Below, in pieces: positions 11,180 through 19,761 of a DNA stretch of 53,872 nt. The position numbers were made by a program, and so were the translations under genes. Within the stretch, counting starts at the first letter, position 1; each line of letters begins with the position of its first letter. Source of the DNA: Clostridia bacterium (GTDB taxonomy: Bacteria; Bacillota; Clostridia; Christensenellales; Aristaeellaceae); assembly GCA_030536295.1 (NCBI GenBank), contig JAUNQH010000008.1, positions 1 through 53,872 on the forward strand, read 5' to 3'. The notes under the pieces were generated by a model that did not search any database, was not told the origin of the DNA, and saw only the letters and a program-made list of their open reading frames with translations.

Positions 11180-11215
11180 GGGGGTTCGGTCAGCGAACCT
11201 CCGTCTGCTTTTTTT
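11180..11215. terminator. Bidirectional terminator between converging genes
   Basis: A 9-bp stem (11180-11188 with 11194-11202) with T tracts on both strands. The MATE stop codon lies in the loop, so the hairpin overlaps the end of that gene. Confidence 0.7.
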
Positions 11216-12572
11216 CAAGGCCGTGTATCCAGTCGCTCTTCAGCAGTACCGCCAGAAAAACGATGGTGCTCAGCGTCCAGGTGATCGGATAGCACAGCGC
11301 GATGGCGCGGTACTCGGACCATACGCGGACGATCAGCGTGACATAGACCGTACGGACAACGCACCAGAAACTGAGCATGGTCGCCATCGGAATGAACGCT
11401 TTGCCGCAGCCGCGCAGCACGCCGGCCGCGCAGTGGCTGAACGCCAGCAGGAAATAGAACAGGGTAGTGGTGCGCGCGTGGATCGCGCCGTAGCGGATCG
11501 CCACGCTGTTGGCCGTAAATAATCCGATGACCTGCGGCGCGAAGATATTGAGCAGGATGCCGACGATCTCGGCGCTGATCATGCCGCAGAGAATGCCGAA
11601 TACCGCGCAGCGCTTTGCACGGTTGTATTCCTTTGCTCCGAGGTTCTGGCTGATAAAGGTCGGCAGGGACATGCTCATGCAGTTGACCGGCAGGAACACA
11701 AAGCCCTCCACCTTGGAATAGGCGCCCTGACCGGCGATCACAAATCCGCTGCCGGCTTCGTACAGCTGATCAAACATATTGATATTGCCCTGTACCACCA
11801 TGTTGCCGATGCTGATCACAGAATTCTGGATCCCTGTGGGAATGCCCTGCGCGAGGATCTCGCGGATCATTCTTCCGTTGGGCTTCAGGTACTGCAGCTG
11901 CAGGCGGCTGTCATCCCGGGCGCGGATCATGCGGATGATACACAGGATACTGCTCATGACCTGCGCGATCACCGTGGCAATGGCCGCGCCGGCTGTGCCC
12001 ATATGGAAAACAGCCACGAAAAGCAGGTCCAGCGCGATGTTGGTCAGGCTGGAGATGATCAGGTAATACAGCGGATGCTTGCTGTCACCCAGGGAGCGCA
12101 TGACGGACATGCATGTGTTGTACATGATCACGCCGGTGATGCCCGCGAAATAGATGGACAGATAGGTCCGGCTGTCCGGAAGAACGGACGCGGGCGTGTT
12201 CATCCAGGTGAGGATCGTCGGGGTGAACGCGAGCCCCAGTACCGTCGCGACCGCGGAAAAGATCAGCGCGAGGAATATATTGTTGTATACGGCCGCGCGC
12301 ACATTTTCCGTACTGCGCATGCCGACATATTTTGAAATGACCACGCCGCCGCCGATGGCGGTGCCGTTGAAGAAACCGACGATCAGGAAAACAAGGCTTC
12401 CCGTTGATGTGACGGCGGCCAGTGCCGTATCGCTGCCGAAATTGCCGAGCACCCACGCGTCCGCGGTATTGTACAGCTGCTGCAGAATGAGACCGAACAG
12501 CAGCGGCGCCGCGAACCTGAGCAGCCCGCGGCCGACCGGTCCCTTCGTCAGATCCATCGCGGTCGATCTCAT
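11190..12572 (-). CDS. MATE-family multidrug/Na+ antiporter
   Basis: 460 residues, about 12 membrane helices in two repeated halves, as in the MATE family, which expels organic cations or metabolites in exchange for Na+ or H+. The N-terminal LTKGPVGRGLLRFAAPLLFG and LQQLYNTADAWVLGNF are typical of the DinF/NorM-like Clostridial group. The ATG at 12572 follows GGGACGGGA. It has its own promoter and faces the glycerol-1-phosphate dehydrogenase, sharing its terminator. Substrate not predictable. Confidence 0.9.
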   Translation of the reverse strand: MRSTAMDLTKGPVGRGLLRFAAPLLFGLILQQLYNTADAWVLGNFGSDTALAAVTSTGSLVFLIVGFFNGTAIGGGVVISKYVGMRSTENVRAAVYNNIFLALIFSAVATVLGLAFTPTILTWMNTPASVLPDSRTYLSIYFAGITGVIMYNTCMSVMRSLGDSKHPLYYLIISSLTNIALDLLFVAVFHMGTAGAAIATVIAQVMSSILCIIRMIRARDDSRLQLQYLKPNGRMIREILAQGIPTGIQNSVISIGNMVVQGNINMFDQLYEAGSGFVIAGQGAYSKVEGFVFLPVNCMSMSLPTFISQNLGAKEYNRAKRCAVFGILCGMISAEIVGILLNIFAPQVIGLFTANSVAIRYGAIHARTTTLFYFLLAFSHCAAGVLRGCGKAFIPMATMLSFWCVVRTVYVTLIVRVWSEYRAIALCYPITWTLSTIVFLAVLLKSDWIHGLEKKQTEVR

Positions 12573-12681: not shown

Positions 12682-12728
12682 AAAACAGAAGATACCGGCC
12701 GCCTGTGCCGGCTGCCGGTATGTCTTCT
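12682..12728 (-). terminator. Terminator after the zinc-ribbon leader peptide gene
   Basis: A long stem (arms 12687-12699 and about 12714-12728) followed on the minus strand by GTTTTC. It begins about 27 bases after the peptide's stop. Confidence 0.65.
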
Positions 12729-12754: not shown

Positions 12755-12958
12755 TCAGATCCCGAATACCCGACGGATGTTCTTGCTTCCGCATTCCGGA
12801 CATTCATGCAGCATGCGGTTGCAGGGCATGAATTTGAAGTAGCCGCAATCCGGACATTTCTCAATTGAGAAGTACTTGAATTTGATGCCGCCGGTCACCT
12901 GCTCCAGTTCATTTTCGGTCAGTATTTCGGGTCTGTTTTTCATGATCGTATTTTCCAT
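12755..12958 (-). CDS. Small protein: double-glycine leader plus zinc-ribbon-like cargo
   Basis: 67 residues. The frame opens at 12982, but AGGAGG sits 8 bases before the ATG at 12958, giving a protein that starts MENTIMKNRPE. Residues 12-24 read ILTENELEQVTGG, which fits the double-glycine leader recognised by C39-peptidase ABC transporters. Cleavage after G24 would release 43 residues with two CPxCG-type knuckles (CPDCG, CPECG) and one extra Cys, so a zinc-ribbon-like fold is likely. It lies 82 bases after the cystatin-like gene on the same strand and is probably co-transcribed. Cargo function unknown; no C39 transporter is in the window. The LysM protein at 19525 has the same leader pattern. 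Confidence 0.75.
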   Translation of the reverse strand: MENTIMKNRPEILTENELEQVTGGIKFKYFSIEKCPDCGYFKFMPCNRMLHECPECGSKNIRRVFGI

Positions 12959-13040
12959 TTTTTGATCCTCCTTTTTGTTCATGTGACTTTTCAGAATCTG
13001 TTAGTGTTTCTTTCTGTTTCCCGGAATTCCGTTATGCCGG

Positions 13041-13790
13041 TCATTCCGCGATATAATCCCATACGAACACGCAGTCCGCGCCTGCGTTCTCTTTGCTGTC
13101 GGTCCAGTGCACGGAACCGTCTTCCGCAAAGGTGAGCGTGCCTTCGCCGTCCGTGTAGACGGAAGAGATGGTTTCGTTGCCGGCTTCATCATAGGTGCAG
13201 ATCCGTTTTTCGCAGCCGGTGTAGGTCACTGTGAATGTGTCCGGATCGACAACACCGGTGAACATCCATTCAACGGTCTCAAAGGCGCTGTTTGCCCACA
13301 TGATCGTCACATCAGCCAGGTCTTCTTCCAACGCCGCGATGTTCATGGTCGCGCGTTCGCTGGTTTTATCCACATAGAAGCCGATGATGTTCATCGCGGG
13401 GTTCTGTCCGTCCATGTCTTCATCGGGCACCGGTGAAACGCCGATATTGAGCGTCTGCACATCCAGCAGTTCGGCGGAACCGTCAAGCGCGGCGTAGATA
13501 TAGACCAGCGCGTAGAAGGTGTCCTGTTCGGGGGTGACCAGTGTGGCTTTGCACAGCAGGCAGTAGTTGAGACCTGCCACGACCTGCGTTCCCAGCAGGG
13601 CGACCGGCTCATAGCTGACGCCGGTGAACTCCGCGAATGCCTTGTCAAACGCGGCGCGTGCCTCGTCTGTTACGGCCGGATCTTCCGGCGCGTTCCATCC
13701 GCCGGCGAGGAAAGGTGATTCTTCCGCGAAAGCGGAGATACAGGTCAGGGCGAGCATGAGAGCAATAACAGCGCAAACGATCTTCTTCAT
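13041..13790 (-). CDS. Secreted protein: cystatin-like domain plus shared C-terminal domain
   Basis: 249 residues with a signal peptide (about 1-22, cut after AFA). Residues 30-31 are Gly-Gly and 67-76 read GTQVVAGLNY; a Gly near the N terminus and QxVxG about 40-45 residues later is the cystatin (cysteine-protease inhibitor) arrangement, and the stretch between looks helical as in cystatins. Residues about 161-245 form a second domain that aligns with the C terminus of the protein at 48355. The start at 13790 has GGAAGG upstream; the much longer frame on this strand runs antisense through the TRIC gene and is not used. I see no residues for a catalytic role. Inhibitor activity is inferred. 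Confidence 0.75.
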   Translation of the reverse strand: MKKIVCAVIALMLALTCISAFAEESPFLAGGWNAPEDPAVTDEARAAFDKAFAEFTGVSYEPVALLGTQVVAGLNYCLLCKATLVTPEQDTFYALVYIYAALDGSAELLDVQTLNIGVSPVPDEDMDGQNPAMNIIGFYVDKTSERATMNIAALEEDLADVTIMWANSAFETVEWMFTGVVDPDTFTVTYTGCEKRICTYDEAGNETISSVYTDGEGTLTFAEDGSVHWTDSKENAGADCVFVWDYIAE

Positions 13791-14120
13791 TTTGATTTCC
13801 TTCCTTTCCATTTTGTGTTTCCATGATATCAGACGGAGCAGCCGGTGTTTTTGTTCCGTCCGGTTTTCCGTATCTTGCGGAACATTTCCTTTCCGCGTGT
13901 AAAGAATAACATACGGTTCGTTGCAAAAACGTTGCAGGCTGAAGATTATTTTTTCATTTTTCCGGAAACGGAAAAACACCCCGCGGCACCGGCCGGAAAA
14001 TGCCACCGCGTCAGAGGCGGAGCCCGGTTCCGTATGTACGGGAAAATATGGCGCGGGGGATATCCACATGCCGGCGATTGTGATAAAATAAAAAGGAATC
14101 CGCACTGCGAGGGACCTGTT
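13791..14120. other. Divergent intergenic region with repeats and a GAAA hairpin
   Basis: 330 bases between two divergent genes. It holds a direct repeat CGTTGCA-N4-CGTTGCA (13919-13936, 11-bp period) and a perfect 8-bp hairpin with a GAAA tetraloop (13957-13976). An extended -10 for the rightward gene lies at 14081-14089. No convincing -10/-35 pair is seen for the leftward gene and no small gene is supported. Confidence 0.5.
14081..14089 (+). promoter_or_regulatory. Extended -10 for the TRIC gene
   Basis: TGA-TAAAAT, 31 bases before the ATG at 14121. No clear -35. Confidence 0.5.
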
Positions 14121-14711
14121 ATGTATTTTATCCTTGAATTGCTGGGTACAGTCGCTTTTGCGATCTCCGGCACAATGGTCGGTGTGCAGGCGCATATGGA
14201 TATGCTGGGCACAACGGTGCTCGGCCTGACCACCGCGGTAGGCGGCGGCATCATCCGGGACCTGCTGATCGGGGTCACTCCGCCTGCGGCGTTCCAGCAT
14301 CCGGTTTACGCGCTGGCCGCGATCGCGGTATCCCTGATCGTGTTCATTCCGCCGATCCGGAAACGGATCAATACGAATGCCATGATCCTGATCCTGGTCG
14401 ATGCTGTCGGGCTCGGCGTGTTTACGGTGACCGGCGTGCAATCCGGCATAGCATTCAGCAATCCGTTTCTGCAGATCTTTCTGGGGGTCGTGACCGGTGT
14501 GGGCGGCGGCGTGCTGCGGGATGTTTTTGCCATGCAGAAGCCGGCGATCTTCGTACGCCATTTTTACGCGATCGCCAGCATGATCGGTGCAGCGGTCTGC
14601 TATTTTCTTTTGAGTGTGAATGAAAACGCCGCGATGATCGCCGGCATTTCGGTGATCGTCGTGCTGCGTATTCTCGCGGCAGCCTTCAGATGGCATCTGC
14701 CGAAAACATGA
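14121..14711 (+). CDS. TRIC/UPF0126 (YicG-like) membrane protein
   Basis: 196 residues with about seven membrane segments in two repeated halves. The repeats are marked by GGGIIRDLLIG and GGGVLRDVFA, the UPF0126/TRIC signature. Prokaryotic TRIC homologues form trimeric cation channels; some bacterial members are linked to glycine transport. The ATG at 14121 follows AGGGA. The frame is open back to 13845, but that upstream part is poorly like the family and includes the promoter. NagA follows after 20 bases, so the two are probably co-transcribed. Confidence 0.85.
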   Translation: MYFILELLGTVAFAISGTMVGVQAHMDMLGTTVLGLTTAVGGGIIRDLLIGVTPPAAFQHPVYALAAIAVSLIVFIPPIRKRINTNAMILILVDAVGLGVFTVTGVQSGIAFSNPFLQIFLGVVTGVGGGVLRDVFAMQKPAIFVRHFYAIASMIGAAVCYFLLSVNENAAMIAGISVIVVLRILAAAFRWHLPKT

Positions 14712-14731
14712 TCAACAGGGAGGAAAACAAT

Positions 14732-15844
14732 ATGAAGCTTTACAGGAATGCCAGGCTGTTTCTGAACGGAAAGTTCACGGAACCGGACTGCTTATACGCG
14801 GAGAACGGCAGGATCGCGGCGATCGGTGAGACCGATGCCGCGGCGGATGAGATCATCGACCTGGAAGGCGATTATCTGCTGCCCGGCTTTGTGGATGTGC
14901 ATATCCACGGCTTCCGCGGGCATGATACCATGCGCGGTGAGGAAGATGTTCGGTTTATGAGCCGCGAGCTGGCGAAGGAGGGCGTCGCGGCGTTTCTGCC
15001 GACAACGATGAGCGCGTCTGCCGAGGATACGGCGGCAGCACTGGCGGGTATCCGCGCCGTGATGCAGGACCCGGAAAAAGACGGGGCGGCCGTGCTCGGC
15101 GCGCATATGGAGGCGCCGTTCCTTTCAGCGGGACGGGCCGGCGCGCAGCCTGTCTGTTTCTTCGCGGATCCGACGGAGGAAAACTGGGAGAGATATACCG
15201 GCGGCTGTGAAAGCGTCGTGCGTATGATCACCATGGCGCCGGAAAGGGAAAACGCGCTCGCGTTTATCGGATATCTGACCGCGCGCGGGATCACCGTGAG
15301 CCTGGGGCATACGGACGCGGACGCGGAATGTGTGCATGCCGCGGCCGACGCGGGCGCGACGCATGTGACGCATACCTTCAATGCCCAGACGCCGATCAAT
15401 CACCGCAAGCCCGGCGTGCCCGGCGCGGCGCTGACGGATGACCGCCTTGTATGTGAGTTCATCGGGGACGGGATCCATCTTCATCCCGATATCGTGCGCC
15501 TGCTGATCCGCTGCAAGGGTCCCGAAGGCGCTGCCGCGATCACGGATGCCATGGAAGCCGCGGGCATGCCGGACGGCTGCTACGAGCTGGGCGGACAGCA
15601 GGTGTTCGCGAAGGACGGCGCGGCAAGGCTGGCGGACGGCACACTGGCCGGCAGCACGCTGACGCTGGGCCGCGCGCTGCTGAACCTGATCCGGTTCGGC
15701 ATTCCCGCGGAGGATGCCGCGGCAATGGTGACCTCCACACCGGCGCGGTCGGTGGGAAATACGGAATACGGCGTGATCCGGATCGGCGCGCCGGCCGTGC
15801 TCGTACGGCTGAGCAAGACCCTGGACAGCGTATCGCGCGTCTGA
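14732..15844 (+). CDS. nagA: N-acetylglucosamine-6-phosphate deacetylase
   Basis: 370 residues, amidohydrolase fold. It removes acetate from GlcNAc-6-phosphate to give glucosamine-6-phosphate, the first step of amino-sugar use and murein recycling. Visible motifs: metal-binding HIH (57-59) in FVDVHIHG, SLGHTDAD, the substrate stretch THTFNAQTPINHRKPG, and the catalytic Asp in AAITDAMEAAG. AGGGAGG lies 9 bases before the ATG; the longer frame begins inside the TRIC gene. No nagB is nearby. The GH2 gene converges on it from downstream. Confidence 0.93.
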   Translation: MKLYRNARLFLNGKFTEPDCLYAENGRIAAIGETDAAADEIIDLEGDYLLPGFVDVHIHGFRGHDTMRGEEDVRFMSRELAKEGVAAFLPTTMSASAEDTAAALAGIRAVMQDPEKDGAAVLGAHMEAPFLSAGRAGAQPVCFFADPTEENWERYTGGCESVVRMITMAPERENALAFIGYLTARGITVSLGHTDADAECVHAAADAGATHVTHTFNAQTPINHRKPGVPGAALTDDRLVCEFIGDGIHLHPDIVRLLIRCKGPEGAAAITDAMEAAGMPDGCYELGGQQVFAKDGAARLADGTLAGSTLTLGRALLNLIRFGIPAEDAAAMVTSTPARSVGNTEYGVIRIGAPAVLVRLSKTLDSVSRV

Positions 15845-15866
15845 ACCACAGCAGTGATATGATACG

Positions 15867-15905
15867 GAACGGGACCGCCCATACAGGCGGCCCCGTTCGT
15901 TTGTT
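15867..15905. terminator. Bidirectional terminator between nagA and the GH2 gene
   Basis: Stem GAACGGG-A-CCGCC with GGCGG-C-CCCGTTC, 6-base loop, followed by GTTTGTTTT. It serves the converging ends of two genes. Confidence 0.75.
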
Positions 15906-15922
15906 TTCGTTTGTCTCTGTTT

Positions 15923-18900
15923 TTACGGCGTGGAGGGCGCGGGCTTCCGGAAAACAAAGCCGTAAAGGTCGAAACAGCTGCCGGGAAGGAATACCAGTGA
16001 GACCGAGCACATGCCGCCGGGAACGCGGATGGGGAAGGATTGTTCCGTGCCCGCGTCCCCGCGGAACATGGCAAGCTCCGTCAGGTTTTCGCCGCGGTCA
16101 TTTTCCATACGGATCGTAACGGCATTTGTTTCCAGCGGTGTGTTGCCGCGAAGAACAAGCTCCGCTTCGCCGGCATTGCCGAAGTCCATTTCGTTCCAGA
16201 CGAGCGTGACATTGTTGCCGATGCCGAGGATGCGGTCGCCTTCCTTCCGGAAGGCATCTCCCCAGACGCCGTCGGCATCCGCCGCGGTCTGCGGCCTGAA
16301 AGCCCGGCTCATTCTTTCAAAGCGGAATCCCTTCAGATGCACCTTGTCGGTCATGGAAAAGCACAGCGTATGCATGCCGGTCAGCACTTCGGGGAGCTCC
16401 CACGTCTCCTCCTGATAGACATTCCAGATGCTGGGCTTTTTATATTTCAGCACGGTGAAGGGTCTGACACCGTTCTGACGCGGGTCATCAAGCCATACGG
16501 TGATCTCATGCTCCTCCCCGTCAAGCGCGAAAACGGGCATGGTGACAGTGCCGCTTCCCGCTTTGCCGAAGTCGACGCGGCTGAATCCGGCCATGCTGTA
16601 TCCGTCCCGCGCGAACGCGATGCCCTGTTCATTCCCGGAGCCGATCTCGCCGTCGCTCAGGTCATACAGGCCCGCGCTGACAAAACTGTAAGGATCGAAT
16701 GCCGCGCTGCCGAACCCGTGCGCCGTGAACTCAAGCTGGCTGATCAGTTCCGGATGATCGTCCGCGTTTCCGCTCAGCGCCCGCAGCAGGAAAACGCCGT
16801 CACCCCTGCCGGTCACGAACACGCGGTCCTCCGTGACGCGCAGCACCGCGGACGGTGTTTCGATCCCGGATTCATTGGTGACCTGCCAGCGGATCGGCCG
16901 CGGAGCCGCGTCCGCGGGAAACAGCTGCCATCCGAACGCGCATTCGGGATGGTCGGGCGTAAGCTCTGTGCTGCCTTCCGGAATCAGGCCGATGCGGCGC
17001 AGACAGATCTCATTGCCGGCGGTCTCCGGTATCTTCTGCAGGCAGCTGACGCCCGGAACGCGCGGCGCGGGGCGTACGGGGATCTCCAGACGGGCACCTT
17101 CGCGGCCCGGACTTTCGGCTTCGATCGAAATATTCTCATCCGTTCCGTCGGAACCGACGATCAGCAGCAGCTTTCCGCCGAACAGACGCCTGCTGGCGCT
17201 TTTGTATTCTTCCGTATCGGACGGATCGCCGTTATCCGTACCCAGCAGCCTGCCGCCGCCGCTGACGCGGATATTGATCCGGTTCCGCGCGTTTTCCACG
17301 GGATGACCGTTTTCATCCTCTATTGTGACGGTGATGAAGGTGATGTCATGACCGTCCGAAAGAATGGATCCGTCTTCCGCGGAAAGCCTGAGCTGTTTCC
17401 CGTCACCGGGGGTGAAACGGCTTTCCTCACGGAGCAGTGATCCGTTCCGGTCATAGGCGCGGGCGGTGAGAACGCCGGGACGGAAAGGGACCCGCCAGCA
17501 TGGCATGCATTTTTCCGTGTTTCCCCGGATGACCTGCTTCCGGCCGAGACTTTCACCGTTCAGAAGCAGCTCGGCTTCCGCACCGTTTGTCATGACATTG
17601 ACGTCGATCATCTGACCGATGTTCCAGTCCCAGTGAACGCCGATGTGGATCATCGGCCTGTCTGTCCACTGACTTTGGAACAGATAATACATATCCTTCG
17701 GGAAACAGGCCGTATCCGCCAGCCCGAAATAGCAGGACCGTGTTTGGTACGGGGTCGGTTCCCCGATGTAGTCGATCCCGCTCCACAGGAACTGTCCCAT
17801 GGAATACGGGTTATGAAGATCATCACATATCAGGCCGCAGGGATCCTTCGCACCCCAGGAGCTGGTGCTGTTTCCGAGGGATGAGCACTGCAGGTCGACA
17901 TCGCTCAGAATGCTCTTGCTTTTCGGAAAATGATAGATGCCGCGGCTGAACAGCATGCTGCCTGTTTCGCTGCCGTAAATGACCCAGTCCGGATGCTTCG
18001 CGTGGTGGGCGTCATAATATTTCTCGCCGTAATTGTAACCGGGGATCCGGATATCCTCCGCGCAGCGCTGGGCGCCCTCCCACGGCATGTAGTTGGAGCC
18101 GAAGGTGACTTCCGCGTGCCCGTCCGGATCGTGCTCCCTGACCTGACGCGCGAGCATGAGCATCACCTGCCGTCCGCGTTCATCCGCGTGCATATCGTAG
18201 ATCTCATTACCGACAGACCACATGATCACGCATGGATGGCAGCGGTCACGCCGGATCCACAGCGCGACATCCTCCGCCTCATGCGCGGGAAAGAAACGCG
18301 CGTAGTCAAACTCCGTCTTGCTGCGCTCCCACATATCGAAGGCTTCATCGATAACGAGGATGCCCTCCCGGTCGCAAAGATCCAGCAGCGCGGATGCCGG
18401 CGGGTTGTGGCTGGTGCGCAGGGCGTTCACGCCCATTTCCTTCATCACGCGCAGCTGGCGGGCGGCCGCTTTCGGATGAAATGCCGCGCCGAGGCAGCCG
18501 AGATCATGATGCAGGCAGACGCCCTTCAGCTTTGTGTGCTCGCCGTTCAAGAAGAAACCGCCTGCCGGGTCAAAACGCAATGTACGGAATCCGACATGCA
18601 GCTGCTCGGTCTGCTCGCCGAAGGTGACTGTCAGCGTATACAGATAAGGATCGGCAACGGACCATCTGCGGACGGAAGAAGCATGGAGCACGGCCAGCGC
18701 TTTTCCGTTTTCCGCTTCCGCGGACGCTTTGCCTGTTACGGCACCGTTTTCGTCGGCAAGGACCGCGGTGAACGTGCCGGCGCCGGCGGTCTCCGCGCTG
18801 ACGCGCAGCTCCCAGCCGGTATCCGTTTCATTCGTGATGACATAAAGGCTGTCCGGGATCAGATGCTTTTGCGGAAGCGTGACCAGATGTACATCCCGGA

Positions 18901-19294
18901 AGATGCCGCTGCCGGAATACCAGCGGCTGTTGGGGCTGCGGTGGCGGATGTGGACCGCCAGCTCATTATCCCCGTCCCGGAGCCTGCCGGTCAGATCGGC
19001 ATAAAAGGCGGTATATCCGTACGCGTGGGATGTGATGATCTCACCGTTGAGCAGTACATCACAGTCCATGTATACGCCGTCGAAATGCACGAGGCAGACC
19101 GGCGCGGAGCAGACGCTTCGCGGCAGAACGCGCCGGTACCACGCGTCGGCGGTCTCATACAGATCATGCGCCTGACCGATCAGCCAGTCATGCGGCAGGT
19201 CAACAGCCTGCCATTCCGCTTTGAAAGCCTGTTCCGGGGTGCTCCCGGAAGGAAGCTTGACAAAGGACCATCCGTCATTGATCAGCTGTTTCAT
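15923..19294 (-). CDS. Glycoside hydrolase family 2 (beta-galactosidase-like), 1123 residues
   Basis: N-terminal jelly-roll (about 1-165), Ig-like domain (to about 270), TIM barrel (about 270-570), then Ig-like and carbohydrate-binding-like domains to 1123. The acid/base Glu is in MWSVGNEIYD (near 363) and the nucleophile Glu in YGSETGS (near 442). RTSHNPPASALLDLCDREG is a GH2 hallmark. No signal peptide, so it acts in the cytoplasm on imported oligosaccharides. AGGAG precedes the ATG. The promoter is framed by an 8-bp inverted repeat, suggesting substrate-controlled repression. Specificity (galactosidase, glucuronidase or other) cannot be decided. It is larger than a simple GH2 enzyme because of the C-terminal extension. 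Confidence 0.92.
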   Translation of the reverse strand: MKQLINDGWSFVKLPSGSTPEQAFKAEWQAVDLPHDWLIGQAHDLYETADAWYRRVLPRSVCSAPVCLVHFDGVYMDCDVLLNGEIITSHAYGYTAFYADLTGRLRDGDNELAVHIRHRSPNSRWYSGSGIFRDVHLVTLPQKHLIPDSLYVITNETDTGWELRVSAETAGAGTFTAVLADENGAVTGKASAEAENGKALAVLHASSVRRWSVADPYLYTLTVTFGEQTEQLHVGFRTLRFDPAGGFFLNGEHTKLKGVCLHHDLGCLGAAFHPKAAARQLRVMKEMGVNALRTSHNPPASALLDLCDREGILVIDEAFDMWERSKTEFDYARFFPAHEAEDVALWIRRDRCHPCVIMWSVGNEIYDMHADERGRQVMLMLARQVREHDPDGHAEVTFGSNYMPWEGAQRCAEDIRIPGYNYGEKYYDAHHAKHPDWVIYGSETGSMLFSRGIYHFPKSKSILSDVDLQCSSLGNSTSSWGAKDPCGLICDDLHNPYSMGQFLWSGIDYIGEPTPYQTRSCYFGLADTACFPKDMYYLFQSQWTDRPMIHIGVHWDWNIGQMIDVNVMTNGAEAELLLNGESLGRKQVIRGNTEKCMPCWRVPFRPGVLTARAYDRNGSLLREESRFTPGDGKQLRLSAEDGSILSDGHDITFITVTIEDENGHPVENARNRINIRVSGGGRLLGTDNGDPSDTEEYKSASRRLFGGKLLLIVGSDGTDENISIEAESPGREGARLEIPVRPAPRVPGVSCLQKIPETAGNEICLRRIGLIPEGSTELTPDHPECAFGWQLFPADAAPRPIRWQVTNESGIETPSAVLRVTEDRVFVTGRGDGVFLLRALSGNADDHPELISQLEFTAHGFGSAAFDPYSFVSAGLYDLSDGEIGSGNEQGIAFARDGYSMAGFSRVDFGKAGSGTVTMPVFALDGEEHEITVWLDDPRQNGVRPFTVLKYKKPSIWNVYQEETWELPEVLTGMHTLCFSMTDKVHLKGFRFERMSRAFRPQTAADADGVWGDAFRKEGDRILGIGNNVTLVWNEMDFGNAGEAELVLRGNTPLETNAVTIRMENDRGENLTELAMFRGDAGTEQSFPIRVPGGMCSVSLVFLPGSCFDLYGFVFRKPAPSTP

Positions 19295-19367
19295 AGTGGG
19301 CTCCTGTATAGTTCATGTTATTGACCGGTCTCCACGTTCCGCGGAACCGTGCAGTACGTATCCCTGC

Positions 19368-19402
19368 GTACAAATCATATCATATGCGCGGTTCATTTGT
19401 AC
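19368..19402. promoter_or_regulatory. Inverted repeat (operator candidate) at the GH2 promoter
   Basis: GTACAAAT (19368-19375) and ATTTGTAC (19395-19402) form a perfect inverted repeat. Its arms overlap the -10 and -35 of the leftward promoter, a repressor arrangement. Confidence 0.6.
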
Positions 19403-19403
19403 A
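19374..19403 (-). promoter_or_regulatory. Promoter for the GH2 gene
   Basis: Minus strand: TGTACA (19398-19403), 18 bp, TATGAT (19374-19379) with TGA before it. About 80 bases ahead of the GH2 start. Confidence 0.6.
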
Positions 19404-19444
19404 GTGCGTTATCCCGTCGCGGGCGGTCGGAAACGAAACGTGCT

Positions 19445-19473
19445 TTGCATTTCCGGCACAAATATGATACAAT
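19445..19473 (+). promoter_or_regulatory. Promoter for the LysM leader-peptide gene
   Basis: TTGCAT (19445-19450), 17 bp, TACAAT (19468-19473), extended by TGA. It diverges from the GH2 promoter. Confidence 0.75.
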
Positions 19474-19524
19474 AAATACAAATATGATCGTTTTGTTTTT
19501 GGAACTGAGGAAAGGAGAAGAAAG

Positions 19525-19761
19525 ATGCTGAATAATGTCCGTGAACTGACTGACGAGGAACTGCACCCGGTCGCCGGCGGCGTTTCATCCGCCGACCGCT
19601 GGATCCGTCCGGGAACATATACCCTGAAGCCCGGAGATGATCTGAACAAAGTCGCGATCAGGTTCGGAACCACCCGGAATGAGCTGCTGGCGCACAACCG
19701 CGGGATCGGGACGGCGGAACAGTGCAAGCCGGGTGATATGATCAATGTACCGTCCGTATGA
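19525..19761 (+). CDS. Small protein: double-glycine leader plus LysM domain
   Basis: 78 residues. Residues 7-19 read ELTDEELHPVAGG, a double-glycine leader; cleavage after G19 would release 59 residues. These form one LysM domain: GTYTLKPGDDLNKVAIRFG, then TTRNELLAHN and PGDMINVPS. LysM binds GlcNAc-containing glycans such as peptidoglycan. There is no Sec signal, so export would need a C39-type ABC transporter, which is not in the window. AAAGGAG lies before the ATG and a good promoter lies 50 bases up. The leader matches that of the zinc-ribbon peptide at 12755. The two-component system begins 111 bases later under its own promoter. Confidence 0.85.
   Translation: MLNNVRELTDEELHPVAGGVSSADRWIRPGTYTLKPGDDLNKVAIRFGTTRNELLAHNRGIGTAEQCKPGDMINVPSV

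Follow-up and report, generated by a model that had tools for sequence, protein, structure and literature searches.

Two short genes in the window, the 53,872 nucleotides of contig JAUNQH010000008.1 of a Clostridia bacterium that were analyzed as one stretch, encode proteins with matching N-terminal leaders that end in a double glycine (GG), and the question raised by this locus is how such proteins would leave the cell. Exporters with a C39 peptidase domain are usually interpreted as exporting bacteriocins or pheromones. The cargo behind these two leaders is a LysM domain in one protein and a pair of zinc-ribbon-like cysteine knuckles in the other. From the genomes compared, we consider it highly probable that both proteins belong to a set of small proteins, unlinked and spread over the genome, that carry one GG leader and are exported by one NHLM-type peptidase-containing ATP-binding cassette (ABC) transporter.

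The two window proteins and the leader set of the genome

Both open reading frames (ORFs) named by an earlier sequence-only reading were present as it had described them, with correct coordinates and aligned leaders (Table 1). The zinc-ribbon-like ORF encodes 67 aa from the ATG at 12958, and an alternative in-frame ATG at 12982 would extend it to 75 aa. Both leaders fit the positions of C39 substrates, namely L-12, E-8, L-7, a hydrophobic residue at -4 and the final GG. The docking residues described for C39 structures, in the accessible parts of the two papers, are V-4, L-7 and L-12 (PMC6363468) and L-7 and L-12 (PMC6959990). When the pattern LTxxELxxVxGG was searched as degenerate DNA with one mismatch, exactly these two sites were found in the window, and no match was found in 100 dinucleotide shuffles of it. 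The zinc-ribbon protein passed the class II bacteriocin leader model TIGR01847 (17.8 bits against a cut-off of 15.7), the LysM protein gave no match to that model at E ≤ 10, and in profile scans neither protein matched NHLP or Nif11. With regard to the cargo types given by the sequence-only reading, the LysM domain scored above its Pfam cut-off, and the CPxCG zinc ribbon was recovered at the level of the motif only: the CPDC and CPEC knuckles are there, and the best Pfam zinc-ribbon scores are below the curated cut-offs (21.3 against 31.2 bits and 20.9 against 34.4 bits). Its remark that the cargo is not bacteriocin-like holds for the LysM and CxxC cargo of the window, with the limit that bacteriocin-like cargo does follow the same leader in a minority of cases.

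The host genome (G000) is a metagenome-assembled genome (MAG) of 2.2 Mb in 84 contigs, 66.8% complete, in which the window is contig C75. As shown by searches with TIGR01847, a LysM query and leader models, it holds seven more short leader-bearing ORFs besides the window pair: two LysM ORFs (C74 and C6), two SH3 ORFs (C7, SH3_3 at 34.1 against 27 bits; C83, SH3-like by iterated profile), two zinc-ribbon-like ORFs of the CxxC type (C22 and C77) and one short peptide (C21; 49 or 52 aa depending on the start). Two weak leader matches in long ORFs (C25, 418 aa; C15, 602 aa) were rejected as internal.

The leader model A3 (18 leader columns, 19 rows) was then applied to 41 genomes, the host and its relatives, of which 18 contained matches at E ≤ 0.01, 77 in total; all 75 matches outside the window were retrieved and translated. 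With the best-fitting GG as anchor, all 77 leaders carry G-1, G-2 and L or M at -7; position -4 is V or I in 71 of them, 63 have L-12 and 60 have E-8. This tally is not independent, because the leaders were selected by the model. A Pfam scan of 76 of these ORFs (L167, which is cut by a contig end, was excluded) assigned LysM to 33, SH3_3 to 8 and Nif11 to 1. By iterated profile, 33 of the 77 are LysM and 11 SH3, and a strict pattern recognized 7 with two CxxC knuckles, leaving a remainder of 26; the LysM share may be too high, since LysM searches supplied part of the leaders from which models A2 and A3 were made. The cargo measures 51–71 residues for LysM, 68–82 for SH3 and 37–55 for the strict CxxC type. 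By eye, the remainder includes cysteine-knuckle proteins (L144, L172, L185, L186, L195), bacteriocin-like proteins (L148, L189, L203) and long Nif11-like leaders (L182, L186).

Four ortholog pairs between the host genome and its near relative G022 allowed the rates of nonsynonymous (dN) and synonymous (dS) substitution in the cargo to be compared. The dN/dS values were 0.03/0.52, 0.18/0.68, 0.10/0.85 and 0.15/0.59, and at the level of sequence dN below dS in all four pairs shows purifying selection on the cargo, which is a conserved protein rather than a hypervariable core. This evidence covers the set of leader genes and not the window genes themselves, because none of the relatives searched has a close orthologue of either.

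The exporter and its association with the leaders

The only C39 match of the host genome at E ≤ 0.001 was found on contig C73, in a protein of 717 aa that passes TIGR03796 (NHLM ABC1) with 873.7 bits against a cut-off of 853.3. The residues Q16, C22, H96 and D112, which we take to be catalytic by analogy with other C39 proteins, are all present in this ABC1, together with Walker A and LSGGQ. An ABC2-like protein, whose best match is TIGR03797 (683 against 709.4 bits), lies directly 3′ of ABC1. An HlyD-type secretion protein (TIGR03794) was not recovered above the cut-off: the 157-aa protein before ABC1 reached 22.2 against 156.2 bits, with its N-terminal part only. Short HlyD-like genes of about 140–157 aa were seen 5′ of ABC1 at L002:9311-9784 and L252:5256-5684, covering no more than the start of the 421-position model.

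The sequence-only reading had stated that the window holds no C39 transporter and that a shared exporter would lie elsewhere. No C39 domain was indeed found in the window, where the ABC-transporter ORF at 5338-7047 matches positions 132-707 of the 710 of the ABC1 model, without the C39 part, and the C39 exporter is present on another contig. From relatives, 20 stretches around exporters were taken, one of which (L302) is a leader cluster without an exporter and left 19 for comparison; ABC1 and ABC2 are adjacent in the host locus and in all 19. Contigs of a MAG may be misbinned, but G022, the near relative, shares this exporter at 93% identity and carries orthologues of four of the host's leader genes. 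A gene overlapping the end of ABC2 (L002:14191-15120), presumably FliB-like, is shared only with G022 among the compared loci; FliB-like and amidohydrolase genes were considered as exporter partners and dropped, as they occur only in the host and G022 among 20 exporter loci.

Among 151 genomes of the order, ABC1 was found above the cut-off in 10, and leader ORFs occurred in 8 of these 10 and in none of the other 141 (Fisher p 8e-12). The eight leader-positive genomes span six families (f1, f10, f14, f23, f29 and f31), and after removal of the three genomes that had fed the model the counts were 5 of 7 against 0 of 141. In the 41 genomes, 22 have ABC1 above the cut-off, and leaders occur in 17 of these and in 1 of the remaining 19 (Fisher p 3.6e-6), or in 11 of 16 against 1 of 19 when the model-feeding genomes and G022 are left out (p 1.6e-4); this contrast is largely one genus against others, which counts against the export reading, and the order-wide sample is the cleaner test. 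Together with the exporter, the further leader ORFs of the host and the similar LysM, SH3 and zinc-ribbon-like cargo in relatives, the co-occurrence over 151 genomes supports the earlier proposal of a host pathway that sends small domain proteins out by the bacteriocin route.

Linkage was observed in other Clostridia when contigs were scanned with the host ABC1 and the loci of the best 80 of 575 relatives were taken. Leader ORFs adjoin ABC1 in 46 of the 80, many of the loci being cut by contig ends. With a cut of 12 bits for A3, chosen by us, these 46 loci contain 153 short ORFs of at least 12 bits; GG falls within the match in 152 and the direction is that of ABC1 in 148. By a crude pattern, 45 have at least two CxxC, 17 have one, 3 have a LysM pattern and 88 have none of these; by eye, many of these ABC1-side ORFs have long Nif11-like leaders. 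At the same cut, leader ORFs beside ABC1 were found in G104 (11), G053 (4) and G167 (4). On the single contig CAMNKQ010000025.1 (L252), an ABC1 of 943 bits and a short HlyD-like gene accompany three GG-LysM genes, which scored 42.6, 61.1 and 65.4 bits against 20.9. In the window's genus, no leader ORF was found beside ABC1 in the stretches examined. The samples overlap in part: L210 and L298 (G053), each from a contig of 41,206 bases, very probably represent one record. The eleven leader ORFs of G104 stand at L297:2046-11268, several of them with zinc-finger-like cysteine/histidine spacing.

Export reading and alternatives

The sequences compared demonstrate the presence of the leaders and of an exporter that has the catalytic residues expected of it, the co-occurrence and linkage of the two, and purifying selection on the cargo of sister genes; the export reading is well supported by these findings. 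In the proposed mechanism, the leader helix would dock on the C39 domain of ABC1 through the side chains of L-12, L-7 and V-4, C39 would cleave after GG, the ABC1/ABC2 pair would thread the unfolded cargo of 40–80 residues out, and the cargo would fold outside as a LysM or SH3b domain, predicted to bind the wall, or as a zinc ribbon. As end function we commit to wall-binding proteins that work outside the cell, either on neighbours or on the wall of the producer itself. Competition, to which we give about an even chance, comes ahead of envelope maintenance or adhesion, which is possible though less so.

Several observations weigh against this reading. Neither window gene adjoins the exporter, and another exporter may be missing from the incomplete MAG. 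ABC1 occurs without a leader match at E ≤ 0.01 in five relatives (G001, G002, G016, G023, G024) and in 2 of the 10 ABC1 genomes of the order sample (G001, G078), where four further genomes (G062, G106, G130, G139) have ABC1 matches under the cut-off and no leader match. Conversely, G014 has a leader match and no ABC1 above the cut-off. Among 40 relatives, none showed a leader-bearing homologue of the zinc-ribbon protein, the two other matches lying within large ORFs, and the leader-bearing relatives of the window LysM protein are distant, the best at about 36–39% over the full length. Lastly, the promoter motif of the sister species described below, or any other shared promoter, was looked for before the leader genes of the host genome and was not found.

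The possibility that the leaders are alike by chance, or through a shared cytoplasmic signal unrelated to C39, could appeal to the fact that GG and acidic helices are common, to the leader match of G014 and to the behaviour of TIGR01847, which by itself matched 6 of 14 control genomes weakly, at E values of up to 10, and exceeded its cut-off in one. It is strongly disfavoured, and we regard it as close to negligible, in view of the empty shuffles, the lack of leaders in all 141 genomes without ABC1 above the cut-off and the strand-biased linkage to ABC1; the reversed leader model, which is also on this side, matched in 0 of 41 genomes, an empty answer that proves little for a model without a known match. 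A further explanation holds that the proteins are precursors of ribosomally synthesized and post-translationally modified peptides (RiPPs), the NHLM transporter being a RiPP exporter and the cargo being chemically modified before export instead of an ordinary folded domain. NHLM ABC1 was defined, in the portions of the source at hand, with NHLP and Nif11 RiPP precursors (PMC2887384), and the long Nif11-like leaders noted above in some relatives and in many ABC1-side ORFs point the same way. The LysM, SH3 and CxxC cores are nevertheless recognizable domains or motifs, dN is below dS in the four ortholog pairs, and LANC-like enzymes (PF05147) were detected in 2 of 41 genomes (G011, G023) and none in the incomplete host MAG, in a search that did not include YcaO and radical-SAM enzymes; we hold RiPP precursors to be improbable.

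An explanation by class II-type bacteriocins is harder to set aside, and we hold it to be quite possible, if short of probable. Under it, the LysM, SH3 and zinc-ribbon parts would kill or target, and the secretion would be that of ordinary bacteriocins, the bacteriocins themselves being unusual. The same leader in the same genomes does precede cargo that looks bacteriocin-like by eye (L148, with the look of a Gly-zipper, L189 and L203), and leader counts are patchy and high, with 0 to 13 matches per genome. On the other side, the four ortholog pairs are under constraint, and no immunity gene is evident beside the window genes, since two of the neighbours scanned encode a MatE transporter (11190-12572) and a GH2 enzyme (15926-19294), and the third, an ORF at 13041-13790, has no Pfam match. 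This explanation overlaps with the favoured one, export of a small-protein set by one NHLM-type transporter, as it concerns function and not route.

The exporter family and the leader type are already known. The NHLM/NHLP system (TIGR03794/03796/03797; Haft et al. 2010, PMC2887384), as far as the accessible part of the paper describes it, is like the present one in an ABC1 above the cut-off paired with a second ABC protein, here ABC2-like, in the acidic residues, Leu, V/L and GG of the leader and in the many precursors per genome; in contrast, the window has short class II-like leaders, no NHLP or Nif11 leaders and folded-domain cargo, and the HlyD partner has only 157 aa and a weak N-terminal match. 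PCAT1 of Clostridium thermocellum with its 90-residue substrate CtA (PMC6959990) likewise combines a C39 ABC exporter with a polypeptide of similar size and contacts at L-7 and L-12, whereas the CtA cargo is drawn unstructured, and the sections available describe no LysM, SH3, zinc ribbon or genome-wide repertoire. LahT of Lachnospiraceae C6A11 (PMC6363468) is, in the text that could be consulted, also a Clostridia exporter with a cargo-tolerant protease on whose C39 domain V-4, L-7 and L-12 dock, but its nine putative lanthipeptide precursors have Nif11-type leaders and lie in one cluster. Class II bacteriocins share with the window the leader model passed by the zinc-ribbon protein and differ from it in cargo. 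Among the literature matches listed, in which few subscription journals were covered, none described a C39 leader joined to LysM, SH3 or zinc-ribbon cargo, or a regulon of such leader genes. If the export reading is true in many Clostridia, annotation misses an exported class whose ORFs frequently have fewer than 100 codons and for which no Sec signal peptide is expected, and such proteins are misfiled by tools that take C39 and a GG leader together to mean antimicrobials.

A promoter motif, a sigma factor gene and a leader-like protein in sister species

In most other sampled leader-bearing members of the genus, a motif TGCC-N16/17-CGTA(T/A) was found 5′ of the leader genes. Of 56 upstream regions, each 150 bases long, 38 carried it, against 0 of 56 on the opposite strand (L165 and L172 were too short and were excluded), and in 37 of the 38 cases it lies 51–105 bases 5′ of the start. 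In 11 exporter stretches of the genus, it was absent from the regions 5′ of all 258 ATG ORFs of at least 100 codons, in any frame. By cargo, it precedes 19 of 22 LysM, 4 of 6 SH3, 2 of 5 CxxC and 13 of 23 of the rest. The scattered leader genes that bear it belong to G003, G004, G006, G008, G009, G011–G014, G017 and G019–G021 (loci L130–L204); it was not found before the leader genes of G010 (0 of 2), G018 (0 of 1), G022 and G033. A CGTA at -10 is typical of promoters of some extracytoplasmic function (ECF) sigma factors.

The motif also precedes a two-gene unit near the exporter in G003, G010, G013, G016, G017 and G019, in which the gene of a protein of about 62 aa is followed by a sigma factor gene; G012 has both genes without the motif. 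The two sigma proteins scanned (G010, G016) both pass Sigma70_r2 and r4. By tblastn with the sigma protein, matches were obtained in 12 of the 21 stretches of the host and its relatives and in 22 of the 80 other loci, the weaker of which, with identities of about 30%, may represent different ECF sigma factors. In about 0.3 of the 2.2 Mb of the host genome, one distant match was found (25.6% identity; C22, L313:11862-12314), near the zinc-ribbon leader gene of that contig. In 11 of the 13 aligned proteins of about 62 aa, the end resembles a leader in exact register, with L-12, V-4 and either L or M at -7, and Ala-Ala takes the place of GG; L222 has Ala-Ala with one residue fewer, and in L268 a true GG stands in register. 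A Pfam scan of one member gave no match, and it is our guess that this protein controls the sigma factor or binds C39.

These features could reflect a centrally controlled secretion circuit dedicated to wall-binding mini-proteins, in which an ECF sigma factor, with its gene near the NHLM exporter, would switch on many scattered GG-leader genes, and the Ala-Ala protein, as an uncleavable mimic of the leader, would occupy the exporter and so link the traffic through it with the activity of the sigma factor. The species of the window would retain exporter and cargo and would have lost, or fall outside, the circuit. We regard this proposal as doubtful; the promoter motif and the linked sigma gene do make the leader repertoire directly testable in cultured relatives.

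Table 1. Features of the two window genes and sigma factor genes near NHLM exporters (window positions unless a locus is named)
Feature	Position	Strand	Remarks
GG-leader zinc-ribbon-like protein	12755..12958	-	67 aa, CPDC-x14-CPEC cargo; leader hidden Markov model (HMM) E 7.3e-5
Leader MENTIMKNRPEILTENELEQVTGG of zinc-ribbon-like protein	12887..12958	-	24 aa; L-12, E-8, L-7, V-4, GG
Predicted cargo of zinc-ribbon-like protein, two CPxCG knuckles	12758..12886	-	below Pfam cut-offs
AAGGAGG, Shine-Dalgarno-like, serves start at 12958	12967..12973	-	sequence
Stem-loop 3′ of zinc-ribbon gene, terminator-like matches on both strands	12694..12722	.	consensus match only; 3 such matches in region against 0.8 expected
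GG-leader single-LysM protein	19525..19761	+	78 aa; leader HMM E 7.2e-6
Leader MLNNVRELTDEELHPVAGG of LysM protein	19525..19581	+	19 aa; L-12, E-8, L-7, V-4, GG
LysM domain, residues 32-76	19618..19752	+	Pfam PF01476, 25.2 bits against cut-off 20.9
Sigma-70-like promoter TTTGCA-18-TACAAT 5′ of LysM gene	19444..19473	+	consensus match only; 3 such matches near the gene against 0.6 expected
AAAGGAG, Shine-Dalgarno-like, of LysM gene	19511..19517	+	sequence
ECF-like sigma gene near NHLM exporter	L287:9305-9978
ECF-like sigma gene near NHLM exporter	L288:9742-10412
ECF-like sigma gene near NHLM exporter	L290:12211-12878
ECF-like sigma gene near NHLM exporter	L291:1172-1836
ECF-like sigma gene near NHLM exporter	L292:231-894
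ECF-like sigma gene near NHLM exporter	L303:9182-9822

Two further observations concern the distribution of leader ORFs. A weak candidate for a tenth leader ORF of the host genome (L313:7763-8032) lies on contig C22, near the zinc-ribbon leader gene there. In G145, nine leader ORFs, several of which have related untyped cargo, stand together on contig C76 (L302:624-12747), and the exporter of that genome is on contig C9.

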